IMG/VR virus record: IMGVR_UViG_3300028597_000023
Location: 1-46,417 of that record
DNA: 46,417 nt
Origin: a virus
Strand: one strand, 5' to 3'
Positions 9,047 through 45,999 of this stretch are shown here, one piece after another. A program made the translations under genes and the position numbers. How positions within the stretch are numbered: position 1 is the first letter of the stretch; each line of letters opens with the position of its first letter. The notes below the pieces were generated by a model that worked only from the letters and a program-made list of their open reading frames with translations, did no database searches and was not told the DNA's origin.

Positions 9047-9054
9047 TTTACAGT
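9047..9054 (-). promoter_or_regulatory. ACTGTAAA motif before the ssDNA-binding protein gene
   Basis: AAAACTGTAAAGA on the minus strand overlaps the stop of the gene ending at 9048 and lies 54 nt before the start at 8992. An imperfect stem (ACTC...AGCA with TGCT...GAGT) follows at once. Confidence 0.5.
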
Positions 9055-9752
9055 TTTGGTTCAGGTTCGTCTTCAACCGGTGCAACTGGTTCCGCAACCG
9101 GTGCGCCTTCTGACGGACTGAGAACGGCGGTGTAATCCAACCGACCGTGCAGTTTTACGACATGCTCTTCCTCGGGAGGTTGTTCAATGCCGTTGCGTTT
9201 GTAGAAATCGAGAACCGCTTCTTTCGTATCCATCAGGTACGCTTCGAAGTTTTGAAACTCCGTTTTCAGCAGCGCAACTTCTGGAACCAAACTCAAGCGT
9301 GGCATGTATCGCGATTTTGGAGTGTACGGAAATTCGATATAGCACGTCGGAGTACCGCCGCCCGTCCAGCAACTGCCGTTCGGATCAACGCCGATATATC
9401 CGTCGAGGTCGTATGCGCGGCCATCTGCATTTTTGAAAACATGCGGACAGCGAACGCTTTGGAACATGCCGTCGCCAACTTCCATCCACTCTTCATCAGT
9501 GCCTTTGAGCGGAGTCAGGTTTCCGAAAAACGCCAAACGTTTTACCAGACCCATGACATAACCGATGCTTCCACCCGAATGGCCTTGTGCAGAAATCACA
9601 CGCAAAACATTGAGAACATCCTCGGTCACGTGTTTTTGCATCTTCAACGCCGACGGGTCTTCATCCGTTGCCGCTTGTTCTTCCAGCAAACGCAATTCAG
9701 AAATTGCATGTAGCACCAGATTGCATTCTTCTTTCTTTTCTTCGTGGCTCAT
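9048..9752 (-). CDS. Hypothetical protein, 234 aa
   Basis: Function unknown. A Glu-rich helical N-terminus, then a conserved-looking centre (VISAQGHSGGSIGYVMGLVK, then LTPLKGTDEEWMEVGDG and CPHVFKNADGRAYDLDGY). I associate the HSGGS...PLTG/K-W pattern with uncharacterised phage proteins but cannot assign a function. The C-terminus is Pro/Glu/Ala rich. ATG at 9752 has GGAG eight nt upstream. An ACTGTAAA motif lies 54 nt before the start. Confidence 0.75.
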   Translation of the reverse strand: MSHEEKKEECNLVLHAISELRLLEEQAATDEDPSALKMQKHVTEDVLNVLRVISAQGHSGGSIGYVMGLVKRLAFFGNLTPLKGTDEEWMEVGDGMFQSVRCPHVFKNADGRAYDLDGYIGVDPNGSCWTGGGTPTCYIEFPYTPKSRYMPRLSLVPEVALLKTEFQNFEAYLMDTKEAVLDFYKRNGIEQPPEEEHVVKLHGRLDYTAVLSPSEGAPVAEPVAPVEDEPEPKL

Positions 9753-9806
9753 CTGTAAAACTCCAACTGTGAAAGGAGGTTGCTGGTTTGCCCAGTCTAT
9801 AAGTTC

Positions 9807-9814
9807 TTTACAGT
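9807..9814 (-). promoter_or_regulatory. ACTGTAAA motif before the 234-aa gene
   Basis: Minus strand ATACTGTAAAGAACTTATAG, overlapping the end of the sigma-like gene and 54 nt before the start at 9752, the same spacing as the copy at 9047. A small CTGG-loop-CCAG hairpin follows. Confidence 0.5.
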
Positions 9815-9815
9815 A

Positions 9816-10829
9816 TTACGCCAACCCTTCCTCACGCATGTGTTCGTACATCAGCGAACGTTCGAAATGATCGAAGTATTCACCAATATCCAGACTCAAA
9901 CGAGCGATGCCAAGTGGATCAACTTTTTTCGCAAGCTTCTGAACAATTGCAACGTTCTGTTCCTGCTCAAGGTCATGATCCAACGCGTTGGCCGGGGCAA
10001 GCACAGCGTGTAGTGCCATGCTGCCGTCTTCGTCGTCTTCATTTTTCAATGCGTCCAAACTCACACCGAAATTTACCTCGGTGCTGGTGCCGTCGTACAA
10101 CTTGCGGCGTTGCGTTTGTGGAACGGTGTAGGCAATTCCATACTCGTGCTCTTTCGTCGTGGTTGTTGCGTTTTTTGCCCACGTCGCAATATACGAAGAC
10201 AAGGCACCCTTGTCGCTATCGTATTTATCCAGCGCAACGATAATACTTTTGATGATCGACTGCACCAGATCACGGTAACTGGAATTGCAATGCGATTGAG
10301 TCACGTGCGCCTTGGCAACCTTGTTGCTGTTTTTGACGTACTGCCCAATCACGATATTTCGATACTTGTAAAATTCCACAAGGTAGGCGTCTGCCAGCAG
10401 CAGCGTCTTGTACAATTCCGACCGACCGCACTTCGCCACTTTCGCAGCAGCGTTATCCAACGCGACTTGTCTTTCGCGTGTAGGGTTGGTCAAAAAATCC
10501 TTGTAGTCTTTTACGTAGTCATAGTTCGCTTCCACAAAATGCTTGATGAAACGGTGAATGAAAAACCGTTCCAGTCGAGCACCGCGAATGAATGCGAATT
10601 TCTGCTTACGGTCTGTAACGCTCAAGTACGCTGCCAGCTTTTCGACAACCACTTCACGCTCCAGCGAACTAAGTTTGCGTTTGCGGTTGGTTGCGATCAG
10701 GATCAACAGGTACTCAATCTGTGCATCAAAAACATTGGTGAACAGGATCAAAGGCTCAAGGGCTTTGTACAGCAGCATGTCCATGATTTGCTGAACTTGT
10801 TCACCGGTCAAATTTTTATCAGCAGACAT
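9816..10829 (-). CDS. Sigma70-like factor, 337 aa
   Basis: Probable phage sigma factor that would redirect host RNA polymerase. Residues about 186-225 (DLVQSIIKSIIVALDKYD, then GALSSYIATWAKNATTTT) match sigma region 2.3-2.4: in host sigma70 the same place reads as an amphipathic helix, K-F-D-x-x-G, then an aromatic-rich -10 reading helix. VPQTQRRK at 236-243 resembles the start of region 3. The C-terminal third is acidic then helical and could be a degenerate region 4. ATG at 10829 has AGGAGAG upstream. No core polymerase gene was found here, so it must use host core or core encoded elsewhere. Confidence 0.75.
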   Translation of the reverse strand: MSADKNLTGEQVQQIMDMLLYKALEPLILFTNVFDAQIEYLLILIATNRKRKLSSLEREVVVEKLAAYLSVTDRKQKFAFIRGARLERFFIHRFIKHFVEANYDYVKDYKDFLTNPTRERQVALDNAAAKVAKCGRSELYKTLLLADAYLVEFYKYRNIVIGQYVKNSNKVAKAHVTQSHCNSSYRDLVQSIIKSIIVALDKYDSDKGALSSYIATWAKNATTTTKEHEYGIAYTVPQTQRRKLYDGTSTEVNFGVSLDALKNEDDEDGSMALHAVLAPANALDHDLEQEQNVAIVQKLAKKVDPLGIARLSLDIGEYFDHFERSLMYEHMREEGLA

Positions 10830-10854
10830 GCAACTCTCCTTTGGTTACAACAAG

Positions 10855-11115
10855 CTAGTGGGCGCCAGCAACGATACACACGAATTTACCGCGCTCATCT
10901 TGCACGGGGCCTACTTCTGCAAAATACACATAACGCGAACGGCGAGCTTTTTTCGCAACAGTTTTCTTTGCGTCTTGGGCACTATTAGCATAGGCCACAT
11001 ACTGCTGAAATCGCAGAGGCACACCATTACGCAACATCACTTGGCCGGGCATCAGCACGACCGCTTTCGGCAACAACGATTTTGTTTGTGACGCCGACAA
11101 TACCGACAAACTCAT
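10855..11115 (-). CDS. Hypothetical basic protein, 86 aa
   Basis: Not recognised. A small beta-rich protein with a Lys/Arg patch (KKTVAKKARRSR) in the middle. ATG at 11115 overlaps the upstream stop (ATGA). It is the last gene of a coupled run beginning upstream at 12434. Confidence 0.7.
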   Translation of the reverse strand: MSLSVLSASQTKSLLPKAVVLMPGQVMLRNGVPLRFQQYVAYANSAQDAKKTVAKKARRSRYVYFAEVGPVQDERGKFVCIVAGAH

Positions 11116-13328: not shown

Positions 13329-13686
13329 TTCTTTCTCCATGCTCAGAGTCGTGAAAATTCACGATGTTAACCGACGCAATGTAGGTGTTATCCTCGGCTG
13401 GTTTTACTTCAACGTTGCCCCACATACAGACAGCGTTATAAACAAACCAGTCACACAATTGGTCGATCAGAATTTCGTAGGCGTCCCGTGCGTTTGCAGC
13501 AGGTTTGCCTGCGAAGTTTACAACCGGTGGATATTCAACACGACCACCAGTAAAAATACCTTTGCAACCATCAGTGATTCGTTGCATCACGCGAAAGCCG
13601 CGCTGTTCCAATTTACGGCGTACGTCACCGTTGGGCATCGCGTAGGTCAAACGACGCTCAGGAAACTTTATTACATCACCCATCAT
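13312..13686 (-). CDS. Hypothetical protein, 124 aa
   Basis: Not recognised. Starts MMGDVIKFPERRLTYAMPNG; central Gly-rich turn, then DAYEILIDQLCDWFVYNAVC and a beta-strand end. The ATGATG at 13686/13683 overlaps the previous stop and has AAGAAG upstream; the longer frame from 13776 has no such signal. Confidence 0.7.
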   Translation of the reverse strand: MMGDVIKFPERRLTYAMPNGDVRRKLEQRGFRVMQRITDGCKGIFTGGRVEYPPVVNFAGKPAANARDAYEILIDQLCDWFVYNAVCMWGNVEVKPAEDNTYIASVNIVNFHDSEHGERNVHNH

Positions 13687-14026
13687 TCTTCTTTTCTGTG
13701 TACATCGCGGCCAAAATGTTCGCGGTAAAATATTTAATGCCGATTGCTTTGGTGACAACGGCTTGGCGGAAAGCAATCACGTTGCGACTGCCTCGGGCTT
13801 CGAATAATTCGTGCAATGCGGCATCGAACGCTTCCTGTTCGGAAATTTTCAAGCCGGTGGAATAGGGCATTTCTGAAACATACGATCCGTTAACGATGCA
13901 CATTTCACCCGGTTCGAGAAACACAACGCGTGCGCCGGTTTCTTCGAGAATTTCTTTAACGACTTCACGCGGCACCAGACCTTTACGACGTTCTACTTCG
14001 GCCCAGTCAATTTTCGTTTCGTTCAT
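13676..14026 (-). CDS. Hypothetical protein, 116 aa
   Basis: Not recognised. Starts MNETKIDWAEVERRKGLVPR; an acidic amphipathic N-terminus and a helical C-terminus. The ATG at 14026 has GGAG nine nt upstream, whereas the ATG at 14041 is only two nt from that site. An ACTGTAAA motif and a hairpin lie between it and the previous gene. Confidence 0.7.
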   Translation of the reverse strand: MNETKIDWAEVERRKGLVPREVVKEILEETGARVVFLEPGEMCIVNGSYVSEMPYSTGLKISEQEAFDAALHELFEARGSRNVIAFRQAVVTKAIGIKYFTANILAAMYTEKKNDG

Positions 14027-14077: not shown

Positions 14078-14085
14078 TTTACAGT
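14078..14085 (-). promoter_or_regulatory. ACTGTAAA motif before the 116-aa gene
   Basis: Minus strand AAAAACTGTAAAGA, 51 nt before the start at 14026, immediately followed by the 14048-14077 hairpin. Confidence 0.5.
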
Positions 14086-19004: not shown

Positions 19005-19601
19005 TTATTCGAAATCGTAATCCTGTTTCTTGCCGCCTTTTTTGCCGGATTTCTTGCCAGCTTTTTCGTCTTTGCCTTTGCCTTTCTTGGAAGATTTTTC
19101 TTCCTTACCGGCTTTGGCTTTCTTGCCTTCTTTTTCGGCCTTGCCTTTCTTCGAGGATTTTTCTTCCTCTTTCACCTTGCCGCCTTTCTTGCCTTTGGCT
19201 GGCTTTTCTTCGGCAGCGGCTTTTTTGCCTTTGCCTTTGGCTGGCTTTTCTTCGGCGTCAGCTTTTTTGCCTTTGCCTTTGGCGGGCTTTTCGTCTTTCT
19301 CAGCGGCAGCTTTCTTGCCTTTGCCTTTGGCTGGCTTTTCTTCGGCCTTTTCTTTGCCCTTGGCAGCTTTGGCTGGTTTGGCGTCAGCTTTTGCTTTGAC
19401 CTTGCCTTTGGCCGGGGCGGCATCTTCACCGTTCAGCTTGCCTTCCAGCGCAGCGATTTGTTCGGTGATGCTGGTCACTTGACCGTCGAGGGTTTCCGAA
19501 ACTTTGTCGTGAGTTTTCTTGGCACCTTCGAGGGCGCGAAGTTCTTTACGCAGACGGGTGATTTCCGACTTGCCGTTCAGGGTTACGTCATTCTTTGCCA
19601 T
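19005..19601 (-). CDS. Lys-rich protein with KPAKGKGKK repeats, 198 aa
   Basis: Predicted DNA- or polyanion-binding protein. Residues 1-57 form a predicted coiled coil (RLRKELRALEGAKKTHDK and following). From ~60 the chain is almost only Lys, Ala, Gly and Glu, with 'EEKPAKGKGKKA' repeated about four times, then 'KSSKKGK' blocks. The composition resembles histone H1 C-terminal tails and bacterial H1-like proteins. ATG at 19601 has AGGA upstream. It lies next to a gene for an almost pure Asp/Glu protein, so the two may bind. No sequence signature supports a specific function. Confidence 0.8.
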   Translation of the reverse strand: MAKNDVTLNGKSEITRLRKELRALEGAKKTHDKVSETLDGQVTSITEQIAALEGKLNGEDAAPAKGKVKAKADAKPAKAAKGKEKAEEKPAKGKGKKAAAEKDEKPAKGKGKKADAEEKPAKGKGKKAAAEEKPAKGKKGGKVKEEEKSSKKGKAEKEGKKAKAGKEEKSSKKGKGKDEKAGKKSGKKGGKKQDYDFE

Positions 19602-19627
19602 GATGCAAATTTCCTATTCGTTTTGAA

Positions 19628-19654
19628 AGTGGGCAATGACCGTCACTGCCCACT
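19628..19654 (-). terminator. Hairpin between polyanionic and polycationic protein genes
   Basis: 8-bp perfect stem AGTGGGCA / TGCCCACT with an 11-nt loop, followed by TTTC. Could terminate the 19714 transcript or tune readthrough into the Lys-rich gene. Confidence 0.5.
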
Positions 19655-19713
19655 CAGACCAGACTTGATTAGATGTTTGAAGGTTACGGCGTGATGCAGA
19701 TTTTGATTACGAC

Positions 19714-20181
19714 TTATTCGTCGTCGTCTTCATCTTCATCTTCATCTTCATCTTCATCTTCATCTTCATCTTCATCTTCGTCGTCTTCGTCTTCGTCTTC
19801 GTCTTCGTCTTCGTCTTCGTCTTCGTCTTCGTCTTCGTCTTCGTCTTCGTCTTCGTCGTCGTCGTCTTCGTCGTCTTCTTCTTCCTCGTCGTCGTCCTCG
19901 TCGTCCTCGTCGTCGTCCTCGTCTTCTTCGTCTTCTTCGTCTTCGTCTTCGTCTTCGTCTTCGTCTTCGTCTTCGTCTTCGTCTTCGTCTTCCTCGGCGT
20001 CATCGTCCGATTCGGTCAGTTCGTTGAGAAGAGCCAGCACGTCGTCGATATCCGACAGACCTTGATCTTGGAAGGCTTGCAGAACTTGTTGCAGGACTTC
20101 GAGGTTGAGCAGGTTCAGAGCTTCCAGAACTTTTTCAGCGGAAACTTTTTTCTTGCCTGCTGCTTTTTTACCTTTAGCCAT
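19714..20181 (-). CDS. Asp/Glu polymer protein, 155 aa
   Basis: Residues 1-58 are a small domain: a Lys-rich start (MAKGKKAAGKKKVSAEKVLE) and two helices. Residues 59-155 are only Asp and Glu apart from one Ala, mostly alternating DEDE. Such tails mimic DNA or bind basic proteins. ATG at 20181 is chosen for its GGAG nine nt upstream; the frame extends back to 20328 but through three ACTGTAAA-like motifs and no binding site. The coding DNA is a hexanucleotide array (see repeat), so length should vary between relatives. Confidence 0.8.
   Translation of the reverse strand: MAKGKKAAGKKKVSAEKVLEALNLLNLEVLQQVLQAFQDQGLSDIDDVLALLNELTESDDDAEEDEDEDEDEDEDEDEDEDEEDEEDEDDDEDDEDDDEEEEDDEDDDDEDEDEDEDEDEDEDEDEDEDEDEDDEDEDEDEDEDEDEDEDEDDDE
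19717..19993 (-). repeat. Hexanucleotide microsatellite inside the Asp/Glu protein gene
   Basis: About 275 nt of near-perfect GAAGAC and GAAGAT units (minus strand), with a GA(C/T)GA(C/T)-rich middle. A run with GAAGAT units borders one with GAAGAC units. Slippage would add or remove Asp-Glu pairs without changing frame. Confidence 0.9.
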
Positions 20182-20269: not shown

Positions 20270-20277
20270 TTTACAGT
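20270..20277 (-). promoter_or_regulatory. ACTGTAAA motif, second before the Asp/Glu gene
   Basis: Minus strand AAACTGTAAATGTGGGGAGTC, followed by an inverted GAGTC...GACTC pair. 88 nt before the start at 20181. Confidence 0.45.
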
Positions 20278-20339
20278 TTGCGTGACGGCGACTGCGGCTA
20301 TCAATGAGGCGCTATGGCAGTCACACACTCTGCATGATC

Positions 20340-20347
20340 TTTACAGT
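20340..20347 (-). promoter_or_regulatory. ACTGTAAA motif, first before the Asp/Glu gene
   Basis: Minus strand ATACTGTAAAGATC, three nt after the 20351-20373 hairpin. Three such motifs within 115 nt suggest clustered control of the next gene. Confidence 0.45.
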
Positions 20348-20350
20348 ATC

Positions 20351-20373
20351 CGGTGACTCGCTAGAAGTCACCG
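20351..20373 (-). terminator. Hairpin after the 193-aa gene
   Basis: 8-bp perfect stem CGGTGACT / AGTCACCG with a 7-nt loop, 31 nt after the stop at 20405. No T-run; probable terminator or 3' stabiliser. Confidence 0.5.
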
Positions 20374-20404
20374 ACGTACCGTGTCACCGACAGAGGGCGG
20401 GCAA

Positions 20405-20986
20405 TTACTTCTTTTTTGCCTTTTTGCCTTCTTTGATATCGGTAACTTTGCCTTTCTTCTTGTCGCCCTTGTCACCCTTTACAGTTTTGTCGCCAGCGCT
20501 GCGGCCACGGTTCGAAGCCTGCGAACCTTCGAGGTCGAGGGCTTTGATTTCGTATTCCACTTTGCTGTTCGGTGCGAACACGGAAACGCCATCGTCATTT
20601 TTGATAACGATATCGGAACCGTTGAATTTCAGGGTGCCGGTTGCGGACAGGAACGGCTTGCGTTGCATAACGGTGATCGAACCGCCTTTTTCATCGCCGA
20701 GAACTTCGAGGATGTTGGCGTTGTCGAAAACAGAAACAACCATTTGCTTGGCAGCGCTGGATTTCTTGTGACGCCATACGGTGTGCGTGGCGCTACGTTC
20801 GATCAGGTAGCCCGGTACTTCGGTCGGCACGCTGGCGAAACCGGTAACGGTGAACTGGCCGGTCTTCATGGTGAACGGGGTTTTGGCGGTGGTGCCGGTC
20901 AGTTTACGCACTGCTTTTTCAATGCGTGGAACTTTGGTACGAGCTACGCCAGCTTTTGCGCCTTTGGTTTTTTCTGCTTTTGCCAT
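20405..20986 (-). CDS. Hypothetical Lys-rich-ended protein, 193 aa
   Basis: Not recognised. Basic N-terminus (MAKAEKTKGAKAG), a beta-rich central domain of about 110 residues (TGQFTVTGFASVPTEVPGYL and following), then a Lys/Gly/Asp tail (KGDKGDKKKGK). Its ACT GTA AAG (Thr-Val-Lys) at 20478 is one of the intragenic copies of the octamer. ATG at 20986 has GGA seven nt upstream. Possibly DNA binding; no family assigned. Confidence 0.75.
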   Translation of the reverse strand: MAKAEKTKGAKAGVARTKVPRIEKAVRKLTGTTAKTPFTMKTGQFTVTGFASVPTEVPGYLIERSATHTVWRHKKSSAAKQMVVSVFDNANILEVLGDEKGGSITVMQRKPFLSATGTLKFNGSDIVIKNDDGVSVFAPNSKVEYEIKALDLEGSQASNRGRSAGDKTVKGDKGDKKKGKVTDIKEGKKAKKK

Positions 20987-21000
20987 GATTTGATCCAGCC

Positions 21001-21888
21001 TTATTTAGGTTTAGATTTCTTGATGATCGAAATACCAACGAGGGTGTTGGCTTCGCGTGGTAGGTGTTTGAATTCACCTTGGACTGCTTGAACACTCAGT
21101 ACATTTACAGTTTCATCAATGAGCAACGCATTGAAGAACGCCAGAGTGGTGGGCCGTACAAAGAAATTAGAAACGTCAAAAGCAACATACAGCGCGGTAT
21201 CAACGCTGGTAGCGCTTGCGGCGTTACGAACACGTGCAACGTAAAGTTTGCGGAACTCTTCGAGCGAATCCATTGAAGTGAGTTGCGCAACGTGAATGTA
21301 AACGTTCACGTCGATATGCACTTCATTTACAGTTTCCGCATCGACGGACTGTTCGCGCTTGTACGTAAGAACAACATCGGTTTTGAACATATCCGAATAG
21401 GCAATGCTAAAAGAAGCGCCCAATTGTTCAATTACGTCGCCGCCGAAGCATTCAGCCAATTTGGCCTTAATTGCGTCCACTTGCGTATCAATACGCAGAC
21501 GGGCCGTTTCTTCGTTTGCAGCGAGAATTACGTAGTTCTGTTCGGAGATATGCTGAATGAAACGAAATACCGATTCGAACCCTTCAACCGCAATGCCGTT
21601 GTTTTTACGCGACAGCGGAATAGCGAGACTAACCGGTGTATCGGAACCATCAACATCAAACGTTTCAACCTCTTCTACGACTTCATTTACAGTATTGCAA
21701 ACGGCGCCGAGGAAGATGTTCAGATGCGGTGTAATCCGAATAGGGAATTCCGCAATGTTTTTGCTTGGATCGTCCGGCGTTTGGTCAGCGGGACGATTGG
21801 TATTTGCTGGTTCCTGCGCCGGGGTGAGAACGCGTGCGTCCATACGTACACGCTCGTCGGCGATATGTTCGGGTGATTTGTCCATCAT
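21001..21888 (-). CDS. Hypothetical protein, 295 aa
   Basis: Not recognised. A polar N-terminus of ~45 residues, then mixed beta/alpha. Three Thr-Val-Asn triplets are each coded as ACT GTA AAT (at 21104, 21326 and 21686), so the octamer ACTGTAAA occurs three times in frame. ATG at 21888 has GAGG eight nt upstream and overlaps the previous stop (ATGA). Confidence 0.75.
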   Translation of the reverse strand: MMDKSPEHIADERVRMDARVLTPAQEPANTNRPADQTPDDPSKNIAEFPIRITPHLNIFLGAVCNTVNEVVEEVETFDVDGSDTPVSLAIPLSRKNNGIAVEGFESVFRFIQHISEQNYVILAANEETARLRIDTQVDAIKAKLAECFGGDVIEQLGASFSIAYSDMFKTDVVLTYKREQSVDAETVNEVHIDVNVYIHVAQLTSMDSLEEFRKLYVARVRNAASATSVDTALYVAFDVSNFFVRPTTLAFFNALLIDETVNVLSVQAVQGEFKHLPREANTLVGISIIKKSKPK

Positions 21889-23189
21889 AAGTCAATCCTC
21901 GAAACGTCCACGAAACGCACACTGGCATCAGGACTTGGTTGAATGATTAGCGCTTTGACTTTTGCGTCTAGCGTTCTCTCGAATAACTTTACAGTTTTTG
22001 CAACGTCGTCACTTTCAGCAACGAACCCAGCGAATTCCAACAACGGGTGCGTAATGCTCATGAAACCCATTGACGACAAATGCGTTTGCATAATCTGGCT
22101 CATTGGTACGGTTTTGAGTCCGACCGCACGATTCCAGCGATACAGTTCATGGGACAACAGCCGCAAATACGAACGCGGACGCGTAGCCATGTAGGCCATG
22201 TATTCCAATTGCGGATTGGTATTCTTCAAATACTCCGCATTACGTTCAACTGCGGCCTTCGCTTCACGCAACGCTTTCTTGTGCTTGACCGGCACAGGCT
22301 CGCCCATATCTTGAAAGCGTTTTACAGTTCTGCGAATACGGCTCAAAGCTTTTTCGCTTTCGGCCAGATTTGCTTCGAAGAAATCCAAATTGAAACTGGA
22401 TTGCTCACGATCCACGGTGTCATCATTCAGGAATTTCGTGAAGATATCCCAAAGGTTTTCACCGACAGCAGTAGACGCCTCACGCTTCGACTCAGGAATA
22501 AAAATCGTAGCAGCAATTACGTACATGCTGTTATCACCGAACGGCGTGTAATCGCGCATCGGCGTATGTTTGCCCAGCATACCGAACGCAAGCGGCGCGC
22601 CCAGTTGAACCAGCTTGTCAAAGCTCAGGAACATATCGCCTTGTTCGTCGCGATAAAAACCCGCGTACAAATGCGGCGTGACTCCCGGCACGTGACGATA
22701 AATCAAATACACGCGAATGCCATCAAGGCGCGGCATGACGTAGCAGCCTTTACGAAATTCGCTTTCGTGTTTGAAATCGTGAATCTTGTTGATAATGTCG
22801 AGACACGGCAACAGCAAACTATCCGGGTAAATTTCATCCGGGTTGTTTTGGGCGTGTGCGATTACCTGCGCTGCACAATCATCAAATGCATGTTCAGCGG
22901 GTGTCAGCGTTGCGTGACTGACCCACGACTTCGCCAGCGCGGCGTCATGTGGCAATCCGTAACCAACGTTATACAACATGGATACCGTCACCATGTCGCT
23001 AACGCTGCCATCTGCTGCGCGCTTGGCAATCCGCACTAGGTCGGATTTTTTCATACGCGGATCAACCGTCAGTTGCTGGTCAGCTATACGGCCAGTGTAA
23101 GCGTACGTATAGGACGTGATATTTCCGGCATCTGCGCAAGTGTGCAGTACGCCAGTTTCGTACAAGCGGTGAATTGCACTATTCAGCAT
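21885..23189 (-). CDS. Hypothetical protein, possible degenerate ligase adenylation domain, 434 aa
   Basis: Residues about 168-185 read CYVMPRLDGIRVYLIYR. NAD-dependent DNA ligases have C-x-x-x-K-L/I-D-G-x-x at the adenylated lysine; here the spacing and LDG fit but the lysine is Arg. A later MYVIAATIFIPES could correspond to the strand after it. If related, the enzyme would be inactive or use another residue. No other ligase motif is clear, so this is a lead only. ATG at 23189 overlaps the previous stop by 11 nt. Two octamer motifs lie inside it (21988, 22321). Confidence 0.7.
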   Translation of the reverse strand: MLNSAIHRLYETGVLHTCADAGNITSYTYAYTGRIADQQLTVDPRMKKSDLVRIAKRAADGSVSDMVTVSMLYNVGYGLPHDAALAKSWVSHATLTPAEHAFDDCAAQVIAHAQNNPDEIYPDSLLLPCLDIINKIHDFKHESEFRKGCYVMPRLDGIRVYLIYRHVPGVTPHLYAGFYRDEQGDMFLSFDKLVQLGAPLAFGMLGKHTPMRDYTPFGDNSMYVIAATIFIPESKREASTAVGENLWDIFTKFLNDDTVDREQSSFNLDFFEANLAESEKALSRIRRTVKRFQDMGEPVPVKHKKALREAKAAVERNAEYLKNTNPQLEYMAYMATRPRSYLRLLSHELYRWNRAVGLKTVPMSQIMQTHLSSMGFMSITHPLLEFAGFVAESDDVAKTVKLFERTLDAKVKALIIQPSPDASVRFVDVSRIDL

Positions 23190-23463
23190 TTTTCGGCTCG
23201 CTAGACGATGGAGACGCTTCGGCTTCGGGCGCTCCACACATGGTGAGAATTGCGGACGCATAATTTTCTTCGTGCTGTTTCCAATACACGAGCAAATCGT
23301 TTACGTCCAATACGGCGCGGATTACAAGATTTGGGACTGGACAAATCTTATTCAGAATTTCCGCCGCCGTCGTCGCGGGAACATCCAGCGCGTTGGCAAT
23401 GACTGCAATTTCATCATCCTGCATCAGTCCGATGATGGATTCCAAAAAACGCACTGGTTCCAT
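23179..23463 (-). CDS. Hypothetical acidic protein, 94 aa
   Basis: Not recognised. Helical, acidic, with MEPVRFLESIIGLMQDDEIA at the start and a Ser/Pro/Glu tail. ATG at 23463 has GGGGA upstream and lies one nt after the previous stop. Confidence 0.7.
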   Translation of the reverse strand: MEPVRFLESIIGLMQDDEIAVIANALDVPATTAAEILNKICPVPNLVIRAVLDVNDLLVYWKQHEENYASAILTMCGAPEAEASPSSSEPKNAE

Positions 23464-23464
23464 T

Positions 23465-23914
23465 TTATTTCCCCAAATACGTGACGATATCGTCGTAGGT
23501 CATGGTGGTTGTTTCATTGTTTACAGTAACGTCGAAACCGCCCTTGACCTCAACGATGTAGTAGGAGGCACCGTTGCGCGTGAGGATAATGGAATTGCCC
23601 ATGGTGTTCCCGCCGATTTCGCCACAAAGTTTATGCACGGCATGCAGCGGTGCGTTCAACGTGCGAACGAAAAAGTTGTGGAAATCGTTGGGGTTGGCAA
23701 AGCGATGCACATAACCGTACGTGTCGAAACGCACGATATTCGATTCACCGAAATCAACGGTGACGGTGCCAGTGTATTGCGGCGTCTCGACCACAATATT
23801 CGGGCCGATGAGCGAGGTGAGGGATGTGGCAATACGCACACGGTGTTGCGGATTTTCTTTCAAAAACAATTCGAGGCGTAGCTCGATATTGCGAATCTTT
23901 TTTGCACGGGACAT
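23465..23914 (-). CDS. Hypothetical protein, 149 aa
   Basis: Not recognised. Basic N-terminus (MSRAKKIRNIELRLELFLK), then beta-rich (SNIVRFDTYGYVHRF, ASYYIVEVKGGFDVTVNN). ATG at 23914 has GGAG upstream. A strong terminator precedes it and it starts the operon running to 21001. Confidence 0.7.
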   Translation of the reverse strand: MSRAKKIRNIELRLELFLKENPQHRVRIATSLTSLIGPNIVVETPQYTGTVTVDFGESNIVRFDTYGYVHRFANPNDFHNFFVRTLNAPLHAVHKLCGEIGGNTMGNSIILTRNGASYYIVEVKGGFDVTVNNETTTMTYDDIVTYLGK

Positions 23915-29027: not shown

Positions 29028-29879
29028 CTACATTCCTAGAACTGTTTTGCGGAGTGCATACAGTCCATGTTTTTCGCAGATGCGCGCAAAGGTTTTTGAA
29101 TCAACTTCACCAACACGCGTATCCAAATGTGAAGCATCGTACAACTCTGTGCGAATTGTAATCAGCTTACGATTCAGTTTCAACCTTTTTCGCAACTGTT
29201 GTTCATTTACAGTTTTTCTAAAGGCCGGTGGAAACTTTTCGTACGGGATATCTTCGGCACAGCGGTATTCATCGAACCATTTCTGCGCCGTTTTGATTCC
29301 AACACCCGGTACGCCAATGATGTTGTCGATCTTATCCCCGTCCAGCATGAGGAAATCGACCATCTGTTTTGCCCTGAATCCGAATATATCTTTACAGTTT
29401 TTGCGAGTGACGATTCCTTTGTTCGGGTTAATCAGTTTCACATGCTTGTTTACCAAAAGCGCTGCGAAATCTTTATCCGATGAAAGGATATAAGCGGGGC
29501 CGTCGTGATTGACAGCAACGCCGCCAATAATGTCGTCGCCTTCAATACCGCGTTTACCAACGATGGTGATTCCGTAAGCCTGTAACAGCTTAATTACGAT
29601 TGGAATCTGCGCGTCGATGGCCGCAACAATCTCAGGCTTTTTGTCACGAGTGCCCTTGTATTCAGGATAAATCTCGTGGCGGAAATTTTTACCGTGTACG
29701 TCGAACACAACGACACAGTGTTTCGCGTTCACTTCGCGAATTTGTTTCAACAGGATCGAAAAGAAACCGACGACAGCATTCGTTGGCGTTCCTTTTTTGT
29801 CATGCATCGGGCGTTTGTCAGTCGCGTAGTGTGCGCGATACATGGCGTTGGTGCCGTCAACGGAAAGCAGCGTGCTCAT
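29028..29879 (-). CDS. 5'-3' exonuclease (FEN / T4 RNase H family), 283 aa
   Basis: Removes RNA primers and 5' flaps. Metal-binding acids: SVDGTNAMYRAHY at the N-terminus (D8), FDVHGKNFRHEIYPEYKGTR, GIEGDDIIGG, SSDKDFAAL and a DFLMLDGDKIDNIIGVPGVG helix-hairpin-helix. Length fits phage enzymes (~300). ATG at 29879 overlaps the previous stop (ATGA). Two ACTGTAAA motifs lie inside (29206, 29391). Its strand and neighbours place it in the replication operon. Confidence 0.92.
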   Translation of the reverse strand: MSTLLSVDGTNAMYRAHYATDKRPMHDKKGTPTNAVVGFFSILLKQIREVNAKHCVVVFDVHGKNFRHEIYPEYKGTRDKKPEIVAAIDAQIPIVIKLLQAYGITIVGKRGIEGDDIIGGVAVNHDGPAYILSSDKDFAALLVNKHVKLINPNKGIVTRKNCKDIFGFRAKQMVDFLMLDGDKIDNIIGVPGVGIKTAQKWFDEYRCAEDIPYEKFPPAFRKTVNEQQLRKRLKLNRKLITIRTELYDASHLDTRVGEVDSKTFARICEKHGLYALRKTVLGM

Positions 29880-30306: not shown

Positions 30307-30735
30307 CTAGTGATCCAGAATTAGAAATGACGGTGTGTCGTCAAACCCTCGTTCACGAATACGGACGTGGGCGCGATGGCGTCCAGCTTTGTCGGTGCGG
30401 GAATAAATTTGCAGGATTAGAATTTCGCCAGCCAGTGTTTCGATCAGATACGTCGGTATTCTGTGTCGAGTCAGAGGGGCGTAAATCCAAAAGGAATATG
30501 TCCTTTCGAAATCCCGCATATGGACTTTGTGATTTTTATCCCACGGCCAAGGTTGACCGTCGAACGTCACTTCCGCGCCGTTGTTCTCTTTGTGCCATCG
30601 TTCTACAAAATTAGCACGTTCAGTTTTAGAACGTTCGTTGTAGTTCAGGTGCAGCGCACTCAGCGGGCGGGTGAAGCATTTCTTACCGTCATCGTACAGC
30701 AGTTCGTCGTTACGCCGATTTATCCAGACTCTCAT
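30307..30735 (-). CDS. Hypothetical protein, 142 aa
   Basis: Not recognised. Arg- and Trp-rich (WHKENNGAEVTFDGQPWPWD), mixed beta. ATG at 30735 has GAGG six nt upstream and lies 26 nt inside the previous gene. Confidence 0.7.
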   Translation of the reverse strand: MRVWINRRNDELLYDDGKKCFTRPLSALHLNYNERSKTERANFVERWHKENNGAEVTFDGQPWPWDKNHKVHMRDFERTYSFWIYAPLTRHRIPTYLIETLAGEILILQIYSRTDKAGRHRAHVRIRERGFDDTPSFLILDH

Positions 30736-31048
30736 CGGTAGCCTCGGTATTTTCGAGTGTGTACAGATGGTAAGTTTTATCTACCACTTCCATCGGTGTG
30801 GTGTGTACTGCAAAAGCATTCGCGTAAACGTACATACGCTTAGGAATGGTTTTGTTTTTGATTGCACGCAATGCAACGCTTTTACAAGCACGGGTGGCGC
30901 CTGCTTCAATCGTTTCCATGGTGTCTTCGGTGATTTCCCGTGGTTCGCCTTTTGCGTCAAACAGGAAAGCCCAGTAATACGCCAACTGCATGTCAGTCAT
31001 CAAACCGTGCAGAATTCGCGTGTTTTCTTTGCTCATGGTTGTGTCCAT
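30710..31048 (-). CDS. Hypothetical protein, 112 aa
   Basis: Not recognised. Helical, with RACKSVALRAIKNKTIPKRM as a basic middle. Two ATGs (31048, 31036) are possible; neither has a good ribosome binding site. An ACTGTAAA motif and a hairpin precede it. Confidence 0.65.
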   Translation of the reverse strand: MDTTMSKENTRILHGLMTDMQLAYYWAFLFDAKGEPREITEDTMETIEAGATRACKSVALRAIKNKTIPKRMYVYANAFAVHTTPMEVVDKTYHLYTLENTEATDESLDKSA

Positions 31049-31096: not shown

Positions 31097-31104
31097 TTTA
31101 CAGT
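31097..31104 (-). promoter_or_regulatory. ACTGTAAA motif before the 112-aa gene
   Basis: Minus strand AAAACTGTAAAGAATGG, three nt after the stop at 31107, 48 nt before the start at 31048. Confidence 0.5.
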
Positions 31105-36494: not shown

Positions 36495-36779
36495 TCAATG
36501 CGTGGATTTTTCCAACTCAGCGCGTGCCCGGTCGATTTCGGCGAGCGCGATGCACTCATGATAAATGTGAACGCCGCCACGGTCGAAGTTAAAGATTACG
36601 AGTGCCGGGTATTGATCCCATCTTGCGTGCAGTGGTTGACTGTTCACACGGCGGTATCCGCGAAACTCAACTTCGTTAGTGTTGAAGTCCGCGAAAGCCG
36701 CGTTGTAATCTTCACGACTGTTGATGATGTAGGCGGGCGAGTCTCCGTCGAAGAATTCTTCGAGTTTTACAAAGCTCAT
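36495..36779 (-). CDS. Hypothetical acidic protein, 94 aa
   Basis: Not recognised. Starts MSFVKLEEFFDGDSPAYIIN; mixed, with an acidic helix at the end. ATG at 36779 overlaps the previous stop (ATGA). Confidence 0.7.
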   Translation of the reverse strand: MSFVKLEEFFDGDSPAYIINSREDYNAAFADFNTNEVEFRGYRRVNSQPLHARWDQYPALVIFNFDRGGVHIYHECIALAEIDRARAELEKSTH

Positions 36780-37114
36780 GCGGCCTTCCCCTTTTTCGCT
36801 TTGACGTGGCGCTTGATTTGTTCACGCCCTTCGGCCAACGCTTCTGCATAAATTGACATGTCGATACATGAAATCGCAATCATTGATTTTTTCGAAGCTT
36901 TTGCATTCGTCTCAACCAATACTGCGCCGCTTTCATGTGTCACACACGCAAGGTAGCGGTCGCCGTGCAATTCCTCAACATGATAATGCTGGTGTTTGAA
37001 ACTCTTCGAACGTACCCGCGTATCCGGTTTGAAATTGGCTACGGTCGAATTAAAACTTTTGCGGAATACATCGTTACGATCAATGTCTTGTGCGTTCTGC
37101 AAATCTTTCAGCAT
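36776..37114 (-). CDS. Hypothetical protein, 112 aa
   Basis: Not recognised. Basic, with VRSKSFKHQHYHVEELHGDR and a Lys-rich C-terminus (KRHVKAKKGKAA). ATG at 37114 has GGAG seven nt upstream; the frame extends back to 37189, but through the terminator and octamer, so the later start is preferred. Confidence 0.7.
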   Translation of the reverse strand: MLKDLQNAQDIDRNDVFRKSFNSTVANFKPDTRVRSKSFKHQHYHVEELHGDRYLACVTHESGAVLVETNAKASKKSMIAISCIDMSIYAEALAEGREQIKRHVKAKKGKAA

Positions 37115-37141: not shown

Positions 37142-37149
37142 TTTACAGT
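37142..37149 (-). promoter_or_regulatory. ACTGTAAA motif before the 112-aa gene at 37114
   Basis: Minus strand AAAACTGTAAACATCTTG, 27 nt before the start at 37114 and 14 nt after the terminator at 37164-37197. Confidence 0.5.
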
Positions 37150-38989: not shown

Positions 38990-39056
38990 GGGCGCTCTTC
39001 CTACGGCTCGTAAACTGTAAAGGGTACATTGTTAAATTGATATCGAGGTTCCCAAA
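38990..39056 (+). promoter_or_regulatory. Divergent intergenic region of nuclease and primase
   Basis: A 67-nt gap between the minus-strand nuclease start and the plus-strand primase start. The plus strand has AAACTGTAAAGGG at 39012-39024 (octamer 39014-39021), 35 nt before the primase ATG, and the SD GAGG. No clear host sigma70 promoter is seen. Confidence 0.55.
39014..39021 (+). promoter_or_regulatory. ACTGTAAA motif before the primase gene
   Basis: Plus-strand copy AAACTGTAAAGG, in the sense direction of the primase operon. This change of strand with the genes is the main evidence that the motif acts in a transcript-oriented way. Confidence 0.55.
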
Positions 39057-40088
39057 ATGGAAGACGCCTTCTCGATCATTACTGGCGAGATTGAAAAAAT
39101 CCCCGGTCGAAAAAAGCGCACGAATACAAACGTATTTATTTGCTGTCCGTTCCATGATGAAAGAACGCCGTCGTGCAGCGTTAACATGAGTTACGAGGCA
39201 AAGGTAAACATCGGCACATTCATGTGTTTCGGTTGTCCTGCAAAAGGGCAATGGAACACGTTGGCCGAAAAGCTTGGCCTGCAACAAATCAAAGAGTGGC
39301 AACAGTTCAAGGGCACCACCGAAGGTACGTTGAGCCGTGCCAACAAATACAGAAAAGAATTTGAGAATACAAACAACCATACGAAAGCGCGGTTGTTCGA
39401 GGAAGTCGGCAAGTCAGTTATGCCATGGCCGAAAGATAGAGAGTGGCGTGATTATCCGGGCACAATGATTTCACGCGTCGAAGGCTACATGTACGACGAT
39501 AAAGGCCGGGATGAATTGATGCTGGTACTACCTGTTTACATTAATGGCAGATACCGTGGCGGCGTGAAAGCTTTGTGGGAAAAACCAAAGAATGGCCCGT
39601 CGTATGTGAACACCAATGGCGACTGGGTTTTGAATTATGGTTTGCTCGGTTACGATTTCGTACGCAAATATGAATTGTTTGGTTGCGATTCAATCGTACT
39701 GGTGGAAGGCCCGCGTGACTGGCTACGGCTGGCGCTCAACAAAATTCCAGCATGCGCAATCCTCGGTTCCAAAATGTTCAATAAGAAAAAACTGATGCTT
39801 CTTATGGGACTGGGGATCAAAAAGATTTACACGCTGGCGGATAACGACCGTTCTGGTAGTGGCATGGTCAACCTGATTGAATCGTTCTGCAAAGGTCAGA
39901 TTGATTTTGAGGAATTGAAACTGCCACGCAAGAAAGACGCAGATGGCAACCTCATCAAGTGTGACCCGGATTCAGCAGACCAGAAAATCATCGACAAGGT
40001 GAAAGAGATTGTTTGCGGGTGCCCGCCAAAAGAAAAGAAGCTCAAAAAGAAAACTAAAGTCGCGAAGACAAAGAGGAAAGCAGCATGA
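39057..40088 (+). CDS. DNA primase (CHC2 zinc finger and TOPRIM), 343 aa
   Basis: Makes RNA primers for the helicase-led fork. N-terminal zinc finger with C30, H33, C57 and C60 (CCPFHDERTPSC, then FMCFGC); TOPRIM domain with E217 in SIVLVEGPRDW and D262/D264 in YTLADNDRSGSG. The RNA polymerase domain between them is reduced compared with bacterial DnaG (~580 aa). Lys-rich C-terminus. ATG at 39057 has GAGG eight nt upstream. Transcribed alone with the next gene, opposite the rest of the region. Confidence 0.93.
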   Translation: MEDAFSIITGEIEKIPGRKKRTNTNVFICCPFHDERTPSCSVNMSYEAKVNIGTFMCFGCPAKGQWNTLAEKLGLQQIKEWQQFKGTTEGTLSRANKYRKEFENTNNHTKARLFEEVGKSVMPWPKDREWRDYPGTMISRVEGYMYDDKGRDELMLVLPVYINGRYRGGVKALWEKPKNGPSYVNTNGDWVLNYGLLGYDFVRKYELFGCDSIVLVEGPRDWLRLALNKIPACAILGSKMFNKKKLMLLMGLGIKKIYTLADNDRSGSGMVNLIESFCKGQIDFEELKLPRKKDADGNLIKCDPDSADQKIIDKVKEIVCGCPPKEKKLKKKTKVAKTKRKAA

Positions 40089-42774: not shown

Positions 42775-42858
42775 GGGTTGAACTCCTGTCCGTATACTAC
42801 TTAATTACAATCCGCATTCTCAGTTTTCCCCGCGTAATTTAAAAGGAACGGAGGACAC
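42775..42858. promoter_or_regulatory. Divergent intergenic region of resolvase and 361-aa gene
   Basis: 84 nt, AT-rich centre (ATACTACTTAATTAC). A TATACT at 42797 could be a -10 for the plus strand but no good -35 lies 17 nt before it. The GGAGG for the plus gene is present. No octamer motif. Confidence 0.4.
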
Positions 42859-43944
42859 ATGACTATTAAACGCGGCCCAAGAAACAACCCGCGCAAGAAT
42901 GCGCGAAACATCACGCACAAACAGGCCCAAGCCCGGTTAACTGAAACCGTTGTGGCCTTTAACAATCAAGTGCAAAACTCTTTGGCCGTCGATGCGGTCA
43001 AGGTCACGCTGTATCAGGTAAACCGTTTGATCGGACGGCCATGCACTTGCTGTATGACCAATGTGCCGCGTGCACCCGGTTCGAATATGGCACCGGTTAT
43101 TCCTGATGCAGATCGCTCCAACGAAGGTTTTGAATTGGATTTGCAAGACGACGATATTTTCGGTTCGTCTCTTTCCGACAAAATCATGAATGACGATGTA
43201 ATCAATGTCAGCGGCGGAATGGATGACGGCCTTATGGGCATTTCCGAACCGGACGATGACATTTACGATGATGCCCTAATGCAAGGCAGCGTAAACTGCG
43301 GCATTTGCTATCGAACTTTGCGCCAGCCCGGATACAAAGCGTACGGCATGCAGCGCACGATGTTTACCAATTACGATATGGAAAACGTCAGCGGCTACAC
43401 AGTCGATTCCACCAGCGCCCCGCATGCATTTGTGCAGGAACGTGGTGACGGTTTCGTATCGTTCCAATTGGTTGTGCCTCGTTATTTCAAAGCCGTCACA
43501 TTCAGCGTGCGTGAAGATTTGAAAGTTCTGCATGATCGCCCACTGAATGACGAAAACAACGAACTGAAAATTGATGAGTTGCGTAGGTACGCCGGTCGCA
43601 CGATGGAATTCCGTGTGAAGGCCCCACGTTTTACCCACGTGATTTTCGAATTCGATTTGGGTATCGAACGTTTGAATGCAAACATCGGCGGTGAAAACAC
43701 CGTGCTCAACTACGACCGTTTGCAAACGATGGCAGACATTCCAATTGTTTTGGGGCCGGAAGTGCAAGACGTAAACGAGGGCGACATTGTTGCCATTCCC
43801 GAACGTCGGCTCTTTCTGAAAATCCACGACAAGGAACGAAAAATCACTGCTGACCAACGCCGTTTGGAATGGGTTTGTAATGCCCGCGTTCTACAGCCAA
43901 CCGAACCACTGATTCACATTGCCCGAGGGTATCGCCTGCGATGA
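42859..43944 (+). CDS. Hypothetical Cys-pair protein, 361 aa
   Basis: Function unknown; a virion protein is possible but not supported by motif. Basic N-terminus, C62/C64/C65 (PCTCCM), an acidic insert (~85-140, ELDLQDDDIFG and DDDIYDDALM), then C147/C150 (NCGICY). The two Cys groups may form one zinc site split by the acidic insert. The C-terminal ~180 residues are beta-rich (FVSFQLVVPRYFKAVTF). ATG at 42859 has GGAGG upstream. First gene of a coupled plus-strand operon. Confidence 0.75.
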   Translation: MTIKRGPRNNPRKNARNITHKQAQARLTETVVAFNNQVQNSLAVDAVKVTLYQVNRLIGRPCTCCMTNVPRAPGSNMAPVIPDADRSNEGFELDLQDDDIFGSSLSDKIMNDDVINVSGGMDDGLMGISEPDDDIYDDALMQGSVNCGICYRTLRQPGYKAYGMQRTMFTNYDMENVSGYTVDSTSAPHAFVQERGDGFVSFQLVVPRYFKAVTFSVREDLKVLHDRPLNDENNELKIDELRRYAGRTMEFRVKAPRFTHVIFEFDLGIERLNANIGGENTVLNYDRLQTMADIPIVLGPEVQDVNEGDIVAIPERRLFLKIHDKERKITADQRRLEWVCNARVLQPTEPLIHIARGYRLR

Positions 43945-44423: not shown

Positions 44424-44425
44424 AC

Positions 44426-44992: not shown

Positions 44993-45735
44993 GAGAATTA
45001 ACAATTGCGGCCAACATGATTGCACTGGCGCGCAACCGTAAAGGAGACGGCAAACGTTCTGCAATGTTGCGGATGATTATGCCTTTCCTGAGCCGCGACA
45101 CTGGTGACAAACTGGCCGACGCAATCGCACGCAAAGACAGCAAACACTTTGCAACCGAATGGGACAAAGTGAAAAAAGAAATCACTGCACGTCTCGCAAT
45201 TCACCACAAGAAAAAACAAGCGCACACGCAACACGCCAAGCACACTAAACACGGCCACCACGCTACGGCTGCGGATGTTTCGACATTCGTGCGCGACGAT
45301 GGCACCAGCGTTTGCGTTCGCACGTACGGCGCCCCTGAAAAAATCCGTATCAACATTAACGGCAATGACGTTTTTGAAGGTGCGGCACCGGCTGAAACTG
45401 CTACGCCACTTGAACAACCGGTTGGCGCCGTAGTCGTACCGAAGGAAGAGGCTTGCACAAATCCAATTCCAGCACCGACTGCAAATATCAATATTGATTC
45501 CGGGCAAACCGGTTGCAATTATTCGATTACCGATCCACAAATTGTTGAAATGATTAAGCTGGTTTGCGAACGTCTTTTGATGGATGCTGACCCGTGCCCT
45601 ATTCCGGCAAATCGTTGCGACAAACATCAGTGGGTTGATTGCCGCGAATGCATTAAAAACGTACCAAAACCATTCGACCCAAATGCCGATATTCTCGAAC
45701 TGTTTGATAAGCTCGTTACCTGTCGGTCGTTCTGA
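44989..45735 (+). CDS. Hypothetical Cys/His-rich-ended protein, 248 aa
   Basis: Function unknown. A basic helical N-terminus with His/Lys (HHKKKQAHTQHAKHTKHGHH), a Pro/Ala middle, and a C-terminal cluster (CPIPANRCDKHQWVDCREC) with four Cys and one His that could bind zinc. ATG overlaps the previous stop (ATGA). A terminator follows. Confidence 0.75.
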   Translation: MRELTIAANMIALARNRKGDGKRSAMLRMIMPFLSRDTGDKLADAIARKDSKHFATEWDKVKKEITARLAIHHKKKQAHTQHAKHTKHGHHATAADVSTFVRDDGTSVCVRTYGAPEKIRININGNDVFEGAAPAETATPLEQPVGAVVVPKEEACTNPIPAPTANINIDSGQTGCNYSITDPQIVEMIKLVCERLLMDADPCPIPANRCDKHQWVDCRECIKNVPKPFDPNADILELFDKLVTCRSF

Positions 45736-45751
45736 GTCGTGTTGCACAAAG

Positions 45752-45776
45752 AGGGAGGCTTCGGCCTCCTTTTTTA
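45752..45776 (+). terminator. Rho-independent terminator after the 248-aa gene
   Basis: Stem GAGGC-TTCG-GCCTC extended by GG/CC with T6 after it: stable UUCG-type tetraloop, a strong terminator. Confidence 0.9.
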
Positions 45777-45803
45777 TTACTTTTTTTTCAAATAGGTATT
45801 CAA

Positions 45804-45908
45804 ATGTTTAATCGTTATACAATCGTCATTTGCATACTAGCGTTCCTGAGCCTCTGTATCACTGTGAGAGTGCTGTACACGGTGTTTCATCAAGCAGGCT
45901 ACTTTTAG
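45804..45908 (+). CDS. Small single-pass membrane peptide, 34 aa
   Basis: Starts MFNRYTIVICILAFLSLCIT; residues ~6-27 form one hydrophobic helix. AGG lies seven nt before the ATG. Small membrane peptides of phages include lysis, superinfection-exclusion and defence-inhibiting proteins; this one cannot be assigned. It follows a terminator, so it needs its own promoter, which I could not identify. Confidence 0.55.
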   Translation: MFNRYTIVICILAFLSLCITVRVLYTVFHQAGYF

Positions 45909-45991
45909 TTCTTTTGAAAAAGTATTCGAATATTTCCATTCTTTTGCGCAAACAGGGTTCCAAAACAGGACTAAATATCGACTAAAACTAA

Positions 45992-45999
45992 ACTGTAAA
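45992..45999 (+). promoter_or_regulatory. ACTGTAAA motif in the right-end region
   Basis: Plus strand CTAAACTGTAAACTATTG, in the region with no clear gene; would drive the candidate frame at 46005 or 46029. Confidence 0.45.

Follow-up and report, generated by a model that had tools for sequence, protein, structure and literature searches.

A sense-oriented octamer as a probable -10-only promoter core, mainly for replication-class genes, in jumbo phages related to Lu11 and HRDY3

Late promoters of phage T4 consist of a -10-like box without a -35 element and are read by a phage sigma factor with the host polymerase; this factor, gp55, comprises a region 2 domain and a helix-loop-helix (both points from excerpts of PMC7892883). 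The middle promoters of T4 are served by MotA/AsiA and the host sigma factor (excerpt of PMC6024815). Jumbo phages without a polymerase of their own often encode sigma factors, and these likely direct the host polymerase to promoters of the phage (PMC13282480 and PMC7824862, in excerpt); phage PaBG has been described as having a sigma-70 factor in gene 118 and a second, doubtful one in gene 112 (PMC7412058, in excerpt). Here we describe an octamer, ACTGTAAA, that recurs in a 46,417-nucleotide (nt) stretch of viral DNA, IMG/VR record IMGVR_UViG_3300028597_000023, the whole of which is called the window below. Judged on sequence, the octamer very probably forms the core of a promoter that in form is of the T4 late kind and that would serve mainly replication-class genes. 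We use C1 for the octamer class, a CTGTAAA-type box, and C2 for a second box, TAATTTA.

The element as such is not new, since it is marked in the GenBank record of Pseudomonas phage Lu11 (JQ768459), where 16-nt features with the element CTGTAAATnnnnnGTA are listed as 'putative middle/late promoter' and promoters similar to TTGACA(N15-17)TATAAT are annotated separately. Four of the annotated 16-mers (CTGTAAATGGTGAGTA, CTGTAAATACAGTGTA, CTGTAAATACATAGTA and CTGTAAATTCAGGGTA) begin with CTGTAAAT and finish in GTA, and three more features start at C1 copies by position. The note in the record assigns neither a gene class nor a reader, and in the stretch of the record inspected the copies inside genes at 122330-123328 carry no promoter annotation. 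A literature search with CTGTAAAT, promoter and jumbo found no paper; the part of the pf16/phiPMW paper seen has three CTGTAAA matches, in its sigma-70 promoter tables, and the main text of the Dickeya phage paper PMC6143709 uses neither 'promoter' nor 'sigma'. We noticed no transcript map for this phage group in a literature that was not fully searched. The word and the promoter guess are in the Lu11 record; the group-wide spread, the start-site step, the selected copies inside genes, the split between two boxes and the comparison with T4 come from the present analysis.

The window is classed as viral and, from its relatives, was judged to be a fragment. In DNA and protein searches its nearest neighbors were Lu11 (280 kb) and HRDY3 (314 kb), both phages of Pseudomonas, followed by PaBG together with jumbo phages of Erwinia, Dickeya, Yersinia and Xanthomonas; by these matches it is a piece of a jumbo phage genome related to Lu11 and HRDY3. 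The gene order sigma factor, single-stranded DNA-binding protein (SSB), RecA is repeated in HRDY3, PaBG, Alexandra, Yoloswag, fHe-Yen9-02, JA29, Afa-NA1 and AD1. Calling genes by longest open reading frame (ORF) gave many antisense genes that we took to be false, and a purpose-written codon-usage caller was used instead, with minor code changes in some later runs; it called 60 genes in the window, and where its calls were compared with annotation, over the initial 30 kb of Lu11, most annotated genes agreed.

The window contains 18 exact copies of ACTGTAAA, 16 on the minus and two on the plus strand, at the positions that a sequence-only reading of the window had listed. The chance expectation is low, as that reading had estimated (about 1.4): we computed 1.24 (standard deviation 0.97, maximum 5), none of 100 dinucleotide shuffles reached 18, and the reversed word occurs once, on the reverse strand, and not on the forward strand. 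The claim that every copy points in the sense direction holds for 17 (seven intergenic, ten in genes), the copy at 45992 having no called downstream gene in the window, and none of the exact copies is antisense under the codon-usage gene calls. Scanning with a weight matrix at a looser setting (10 bits) gave 24 sites, two of them antisense in genes. Among the seven intergenic copies with a called downstream gene, five lie 27-54 nt before the start codon, as had been said of most, and two lie at 88 and 158. As had also been noted, TGTAAAGA is identical to the T4 late box TATAAATA at six of eight places; the Lu11 form, TGTAAATA, is identical at seven of eight.

Counting on both strands was extended to the relatives, as the sequence-only reading had proposed, and 36 of 37 copies in Lu11 (22 intergenic, 14 in genes) and 50 of 51 in HRDY3 (20 intergenic, 30 in genes) are in the sense direction, with one against in each; the reversed word occurs 5 and 7 times. 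We also searched without a seed for over-represented words in nine long genomes that carry the sigma factor described below, with T4 and 201phi2-1 as controls and with words in divergent gaps scored as sense on both strands. A CTGTAAA-type word was the top intergenic sense octamer in seven of the nine (the window, Lu11, HRDY3, Alexandra, JA29, Yoloswag and PhiXhv12), in the form ACTGTAAA in Pseudomonas phages, TCTGTAAAT in Erwinia and Dickeya phages and CCTGTAAATA in the Xanthomonas phage. Motif search by expectation maximization (EM) ranked a C1-type motif first in seven of eight complete genomes and second in Alexandra; the motif was fused with TAATTT in PaBG and read GGTAAATga in Aura. At 25 loci around the sigma gene in IMG/VR, there are 136 CTGTAAA words on the sigma strand and 37 on the opposite one (33.5 expected on each), the sigma strand holding more in 23 of the 25, and the reversed word occurs 33 and 33 times. 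These loci were chosen by hand from 52 (30-74% identity) without near-duplicates, some being still close to isolates used elsewhere. The IMG/VR relatives were not found with single window proteins as query but with an alignment as query; the alignments held 29 of the 52 sigma loci in one case and 11 of 16 in the other.

The anatomy of the intergenic sites points to a transcription start. Across 49 sites of the window, Lu11 and HRDY3 the consensus is aAAACTGTAAATA..a.gtA. In Lu11 the copies read (a)AACTGTAAATA-N4-GTA; T follows the octamer in 22 of 23 copies, and the final place is A in 19 of these 23. This CTGTAAAT-N5-GTA box is present in the window, its final T being often G, C or A, and the GTA is not general. 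Upstream of the 31 Lu11 sites no column before -6 reached 0.25 bits. The 24 HRDY3 sites show C at -16 (17 of 24, 0.66 bits) and three columns of 0.26-0.32 bits, smaller site sets show scattered weak columns, and no -35 or -30 box is common between genomes. Bacterial start sites are usually marked by a pyrimidine-purine step. Counting from the first T of TGTAAA, the 161 intergenic sites pooled from the nine genomes have a pyrimidine at offset 13 in 110 cases and a purine at offset 14 in 142, and both together (YR) in 105, where 39 are expected. The distance from the first T to the start codon peaks at 30-49 nt (68 of 179 sites, with 28 at 200 or more), which gives room for a leader with a ribosome site. 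From this arrangement we infer that C1 sites are transcription starts. The Alcaligenes phage Afa-NA1 was left out of logos, the YR count and the function test below.

In several of these genomes, copies inside genes seem to be selected independently of codon usage. When synonymous codons were shuffled within genes in 100 rounds, the sense counts of ACTGTAAA in genes (9 in the window, 13 in Lu11, 24 in HRDY3) exceeded every shuffle (means 0.8, 3.6 and 4.2; maxima 3, 9 and 10), and the antisense counts (0, 0 and 1, against means of 0.2, 2.3 and 1.3) showed no excess; the equality of strands after codon correction that the sequence-only reading had named as evidence against itself was thus not found. 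TCTGTAAA is likewise in excess in the genes of Alexandra (12 vs 3.5), JA29 (11 vs 4.5) and Yoloswag (10 vs 2.3). Many in-gene CTGTAAA words lie in the last fifth of the gene: 6 of 13 in the window, 12 of 29 in Lu11, 25 of 50 in HRDY3, 12 of 26 in Alexandra, 14 of 27 in Yoloswag, 13 of 42 in JA29, 5 of 7 in PaBG, 3 of 7 in PhiXhv12 and 1 of 3 in Aura. Compared with uniform placement, copies 30-80 nt before the next start are in excess, for example in HRDY3 (7 vs 2.9), Alexandra (9 vs 1.2) and Yoloswag (9 vs 1.1), and last-fifth copies carry the YR step in 33 of 62 cases (15 expected). In the gene pair at 21001-23261, whose Lu11 and HRDY3 proteins are 34-50% identical to those of the window, ACT GTA codons are identical at three sites in all three phages. 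Elsewhere in these genes ACT is used in all three at none of nine shared threonines and GTA at two of 20 shared valines, and a fourth site is kept but moved by seven codons in the window. The kept codons and the moved site indicate that selection seems to act on the DNA word.

The genes behind the boxes differ in class. We labelled replication or nucleotide genes and virion genes in HRDY3, typing the classes by hand from its annotation (61 of 63 mapped to gene calls), and carried the labels to the other genomes by BLASTP; only intergenic sites no more than 250 nt from a start were considered, and each was assigned the first gene with a label among up to six genes in the run behind it. Over the nine genomes C1 sites lead to 61 replication-type and seven structural genes, C2 sites to 10 replication-type and 30 structural genes with 30 unlabelled, sites before orthologous genes in different genomes not being independent in these counts. 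The split between C1 and C2 (replication/structural) is 9/1 against 1/9 in HRDY3 (p 0.0011), 8/1 against 0/10 in Lu11 (p 0.00012) and 10/1 against 2/4 in Yoloswag (p 0.028). C1 leads to the primase-like gene in eight of nine genomes and to gyrB in eight of nine. At HRDY3 89271/89292 the boxes stand back to back, C1 leading to thymidylate synthase and C2 to PAAR and baseplate genes. The 'T4 late' part of the earlier model does not fit: C1 leads mostly to replication and nucleotide genes, and virion genes carry TAATTTA. The C2 box is itself sense-biased (16 upstream, 3 in genes and 1 antisense in Lu11; 18, 1 and 0 in HRDY3), and its 83 pooled sites have a purine at offset 12 in 81% and a pyrimidine at 11 in 60%; no -35 for C2 stood out. 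As a sense-biased intergenic box, often before virion genes, TAATTTA is seen in the window (42835-42841), Lu11, HRDY3, PaBG, Alexandra and Yoloswag, and at least one C2-like box before virion genes in PhiXhv12 reads CTAATTTT. Among the best eight of 97 literature matches no paper fitted the TAATTTA box.

Two genes had been put forward as sigma candidates, of which one is clearly a sigma-70 region 2 protein and the other is possible by fold only. The product of 9816-10829 (minus strand; the PaBG gene 118 family) matches Pfam PF04542 Sigma70_r2 above cut-off (E 1.5e-6) and PHROG 17569, RNA polymerase sigma factor, and a profile of 30 sequences found RpoD in the PDB (E 2.8e-6). Its model has a mean predicted local distance difference test (pLDDT) score of 79.3, with residues 225-280 poorly modelled, and aligns with sigma-70 5yix_A at Z 15.2 (root-mean-square deviation (rmsd) 3.6, 220 aligned); superpositions extending beyond residue 250 are at 12-14 Å. 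In build it is not the gp55-like sigma that had been suggested, as model residues 3-233 superpose on sigma-70. Region 2 is found in 28 of 30 family members and region 4 (Sigma70_r4) in none of the 30, part of the C-terminal third being poorly modelled; the lack of a region 4 match agrees with promoters that have no -35. The second gene, 1706-2815 (minus strand; the PaBG gene 112 family), has its family in all nine long genomes and no convincing sequence match in profile searches. Sigma factors make up most of the 50 rows of fold comparison for its model, and the top rows are extracytoplasmic function (ECF) sigma factors and sigma factors of other types (highest Z 7.8; lowest Foldseek E 0.079); against 8b3z_D it reaches Z 7.7 (rmsd 3.1, 78 aligned). 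Because this is below the trusted level for helical folds we claim no sigma membership, and a second sigma factor is possible from the model. Profile comparison of the two families with each other gave no match.

A phage sigma factor quite likely reads the C1 promoter, and with a modest preference we take that reader to be the 9816-10829 product rather than that of 1706-2815. In Alexandra, Yoloswag and JA29 a C1 box precedes the sigma gene by 40-41 nt; for the remaining six genomes the distance to the closest upstream C1 is 2.5-3.9 kb. The gene may be autoregulated or switched on by the other, possible sigma factor.

The -10-only promoter that the sequence-only reading had named as one model is strongly supported by the sense placement, the want of a common -35, the YR step at 13-14, the spacing to starts and the likeness to T4 TATAAATA. 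Part of this would suit an element acting in RNA equally well: a processing or regulatory site for a phage nuclease that trims mRNAs just before start codons accounts for the sense bias, the intercistronic position and the 30-50 nt before starts. However, the YR step at a fixed 13-14 nt is a start-site mark, and C1 resembles TATAAATA, a T4 box that behaves alike. C1 also stands in divergent junctions: in PaBG, Alexandra, JA29 and Yoloswag such copies lie 9-17 nt from where the divergent gene is called to start, and at HRDY3 89271 and 159596 C1 is 24 and 16 nt from annotated divergent starts (324 and 187 by the codon-usage caller), so near that little space is left for another promoter upstream. 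RNA processing, offered earlier as the alternative model, is disfavored on these grounds and we hold it to be improbable. To much the same degree we doubt a promoter for unmodified host sigma-70, or for host sigma with an activator as in T4 middle promoters, although it would explain the AT-rich -10-like core and the middle-type genes downstream: the genomes have no -35 or -30 box in common, the Lu11 record lists its TTGACA-TATAAT promoters separately, and the core is repeated in phages of Pseudomonas, Erwinia, Dickeya and Xanthomonas.

That Thr-Val-Asn/Lys tripeptides create the word is a thought prompted by the ten window copies inside genes, eight of them in frame as ACT GTA AAN, and by some tripeptides being conserved. 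The synonymous shuffles and the site displaced by seven codons rule out peptide or codon bias as the sole cause, intergenic copies exist, and the idea is hardly credible. An oriented replication, segregation or packaging signal of the Chi or KOPS type would match the strong strand bias over long blocks, but the sites are most frequent ahead of start codons and divide by the function of the genes they lead to. We rejected a replication-oriented signal because orientation tracks the genes and flips with them within 1.9 kb (37142 minus, 39014 plus), and give signals of this kind no better a chance than peptide bias.

Several observations weigh against the reading as a promoter, the support for which is from sequence. 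No labelled gene follows 86 of 154 C1 sites, and seven lead to structural genes; the functional split does not reach significance for the window by itself, nor for PaBG, Alexandra, JA29, PhiXhv12 or Aura. PaBG is weaker (AGTGTAAA 8 and ACTGTAAA 6 intergenic copies, the top word being CGAACATG), Aura is altered (GGTAAATG on top, CTGTAAAT lower), and the 78-kb Alcaligenes record has the sigma factor and no C1 excess in the k-mer search. A clear excess in genes over synonymous shuffles was not found in PaBG, PhiXhv12, Aura or the Alcaligenes record, and copies in the first four-fifths of genes show no excess of pyrimidine at 13 (28 of 73) and have YR in 25 of 73 (18.1 expected). In the window YR is present at seven of 18 sites, the purine at 14 alone at six and neither at five. 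The first 220 kb of 201phi2-1, a phage with no known link to the group, hold 12 sense and five antisense copies of ACTGTAAA, one of them intergenic sense, and phiKZ has 24 copies against 13 of the reversed word. T4 late sites have no YR peak (purine 0.68 at 13 and 0.58 at 14), and the gp55 contacts, in the numbering of the excerpt of PMC7892883 and by our own alignment, put the start one nt closer.

Returning to the promoter reading, we propose that the polymerase of the host, carrying a sigma factor made by the phage (most likely from 9816-10829), would open DNA at the TGTAAATA-type box, and that RNA would start about 14 nt after the first T of the box, mostly at a pyrimidine-purine step. C1 would drive mainly replication, recombination and nucleotide genes, both from intergenic gaps and from inside upstream genes, and virion genes would use the second -10-only box, C2. 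A clade-wide programme of two sigma factors and two boxes, in which one sigma reads CTGTAAATA for replication and the other TAATTTA for the virion, is a tentative extension to which we give slightly less than an even chance; as part of it, the CTGTAAATA-reading sigma would switch on, or be, the 9816-10829 gene product. Were this programme true, T4-like boxes would have come to serve different gene classes in different phage lineages, the C1 box of the replication class being one base from the box of T4 virion genes, and the genes behind the eight-site C1 ladder at 20270-22321 (about 2 kb) would be fed from it.

Within the window all C1 boxes from 9047 to 37149 are on the minus strand. The box at 9047-9054 overlaps the stop codon of 9048-9752, ahead of 7733-8992 (labelled SSB by BLASTP to HRDY3), and has YR at 13/14; that at 9807-9814 is intergenic, 54 nt before 9048-9752, with YR present. 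The intergenic box at 14078-14085, 51 nt before the called start of 13676-14026, is the closest C1 upstream of the sigma gene. A tandem intergenic pair before 19714-20181 (20270-20277 and 20340-20347, the latter with YR) has parallels in Lu11 (124261, 124339) and HRDY3 (141423, 141458). At higher coordinates follow a box within 20405-20986 (20478-20485), three within 21001-21888, of which 21104-21111 is absent from Lu11 and HRDY3 and 21326-21333 and 21686-21693 have codons identical in both, and two within 21885-23261, of which 21988-21995 has codons identical in both and 22321-22328 lies seven codons off the site common to Lu11 and HRDY3. Further copies stand at 23520-23527 (within 23465-23914, about 55 nt from the 3' end of the gene), at 29206-29213 and 29391-29398 (within the 5'-3' exonuclease gene 29028-29879), at 31097-31104 (intergenic, 48 nt before 30710-31048) and at 37142-37149 (intergenic, with YR, the called start of 36776-37114 lying 27 nt downstream), the last with a run behind it that leads to a gene labelled gyrB. 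On the plus strand, 39014-39021 occupies a divergent junction and precedes the CHC2/Toprim primase-like gene 39057-40088 by 35 nt, and 45992-45999 lies in a long stretch without called genes. What we take as the counterpart of the latter, HRDY3 166703, is in a similar gap before a plus-strand gene; stretches free of called or annotated genes that hold a C1 box are window 45736-46417 and HRDY3 166558-167187, and an Rfam search of the window gave no match. The C2 box of the window (42835-42841, plus strand) has its first T 24 nt before the ATG of ORF 42859-43944, whose start the codon-usage caller placed at 43054, and its counterpart at HRDY3 163436 leads to a run with a gene annotated as portal.

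Some neighboring features were also recorded. Gene 9048-9752 (minus strand), between the sigma and SSB-like genes, matches Pfam Tad3, a type I Thoeris inhibitor (E 1.4e-32, residues 10-129), and is likely an anti-defence gene by this match. Two minus-strand genes at 19005-20181, behind the eight C1 copies at 20270-22321, have very high coding scores for their length and are possibly highly expressed. The Afa-NA1 record (PV550095) is 78 kb, is labelled complete and has its sigma gene near an IS605 transposase; neither a C1 excess nor a gene-112 homologue was found in it, and the record may be partial. Other words are frequent as well: GATATCGA/TCGATATC occurs 64 times in the whole HRDY3 genome (5.5 expected), and GACGAAGA-type octamers, strongly over-represented in the window (46 vs 2.0) and Lu11, probably come from Asp-Glu-rich coding runs. 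EM on intergenic regions gave GGGGGCTTCGGC-CC-like words in about 26 upstream regions of Alexandra and about 23 of Yoloswag, which are likely terminator hairpins.

In conclusion, the data map promoter classes across whole genomes in a large group of jumbo phages, in a form that can be tested. They suggest how two boxes, with up to two sigma factors, could set the timing of replication and virion genes in such phages; both this timing and the pairing of sigma with box are what we infer. The proteins of PaBG genes 118 and 112 are homologues of the window's 9816-10829 and 1706-2815 products, and the portion of PMC7412058 that was seen proposes no promoter motif for them. T4 middle promoters are alike in the class of genes that C1 serves and differ in that we found no common upstream activator box for C1 and that a phage sigma is encoded. 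T4 late promoters (TATAAATA; gp55, gp33, gp45) are alike in having a -10-like box without a -35; the HRDY3 annotation includes a processivity factor. The same k-mer pipeline recovered TATAAATA from T4 (19 intergenic sense copies, none antisense), with A at offset 14 in 11 of 19 late sites, whereas ACTGTAAA in T4 showed no bias (six sense, six antisense). The boxes are nevertheless distinct: the C1 group uses TGTAAATA or TGTAAAG/C, with zero to four sense copies of TATAAATA per genome, and TGTAAATA differs from TATAAATA by G for A at a base that, in our own alignment, gp55 reads. The C1-group sigma resembles sigma-70 over about 230 residues, unlike gp55, and comparing the two could reveal how sigma region 2 alone can select promoters.

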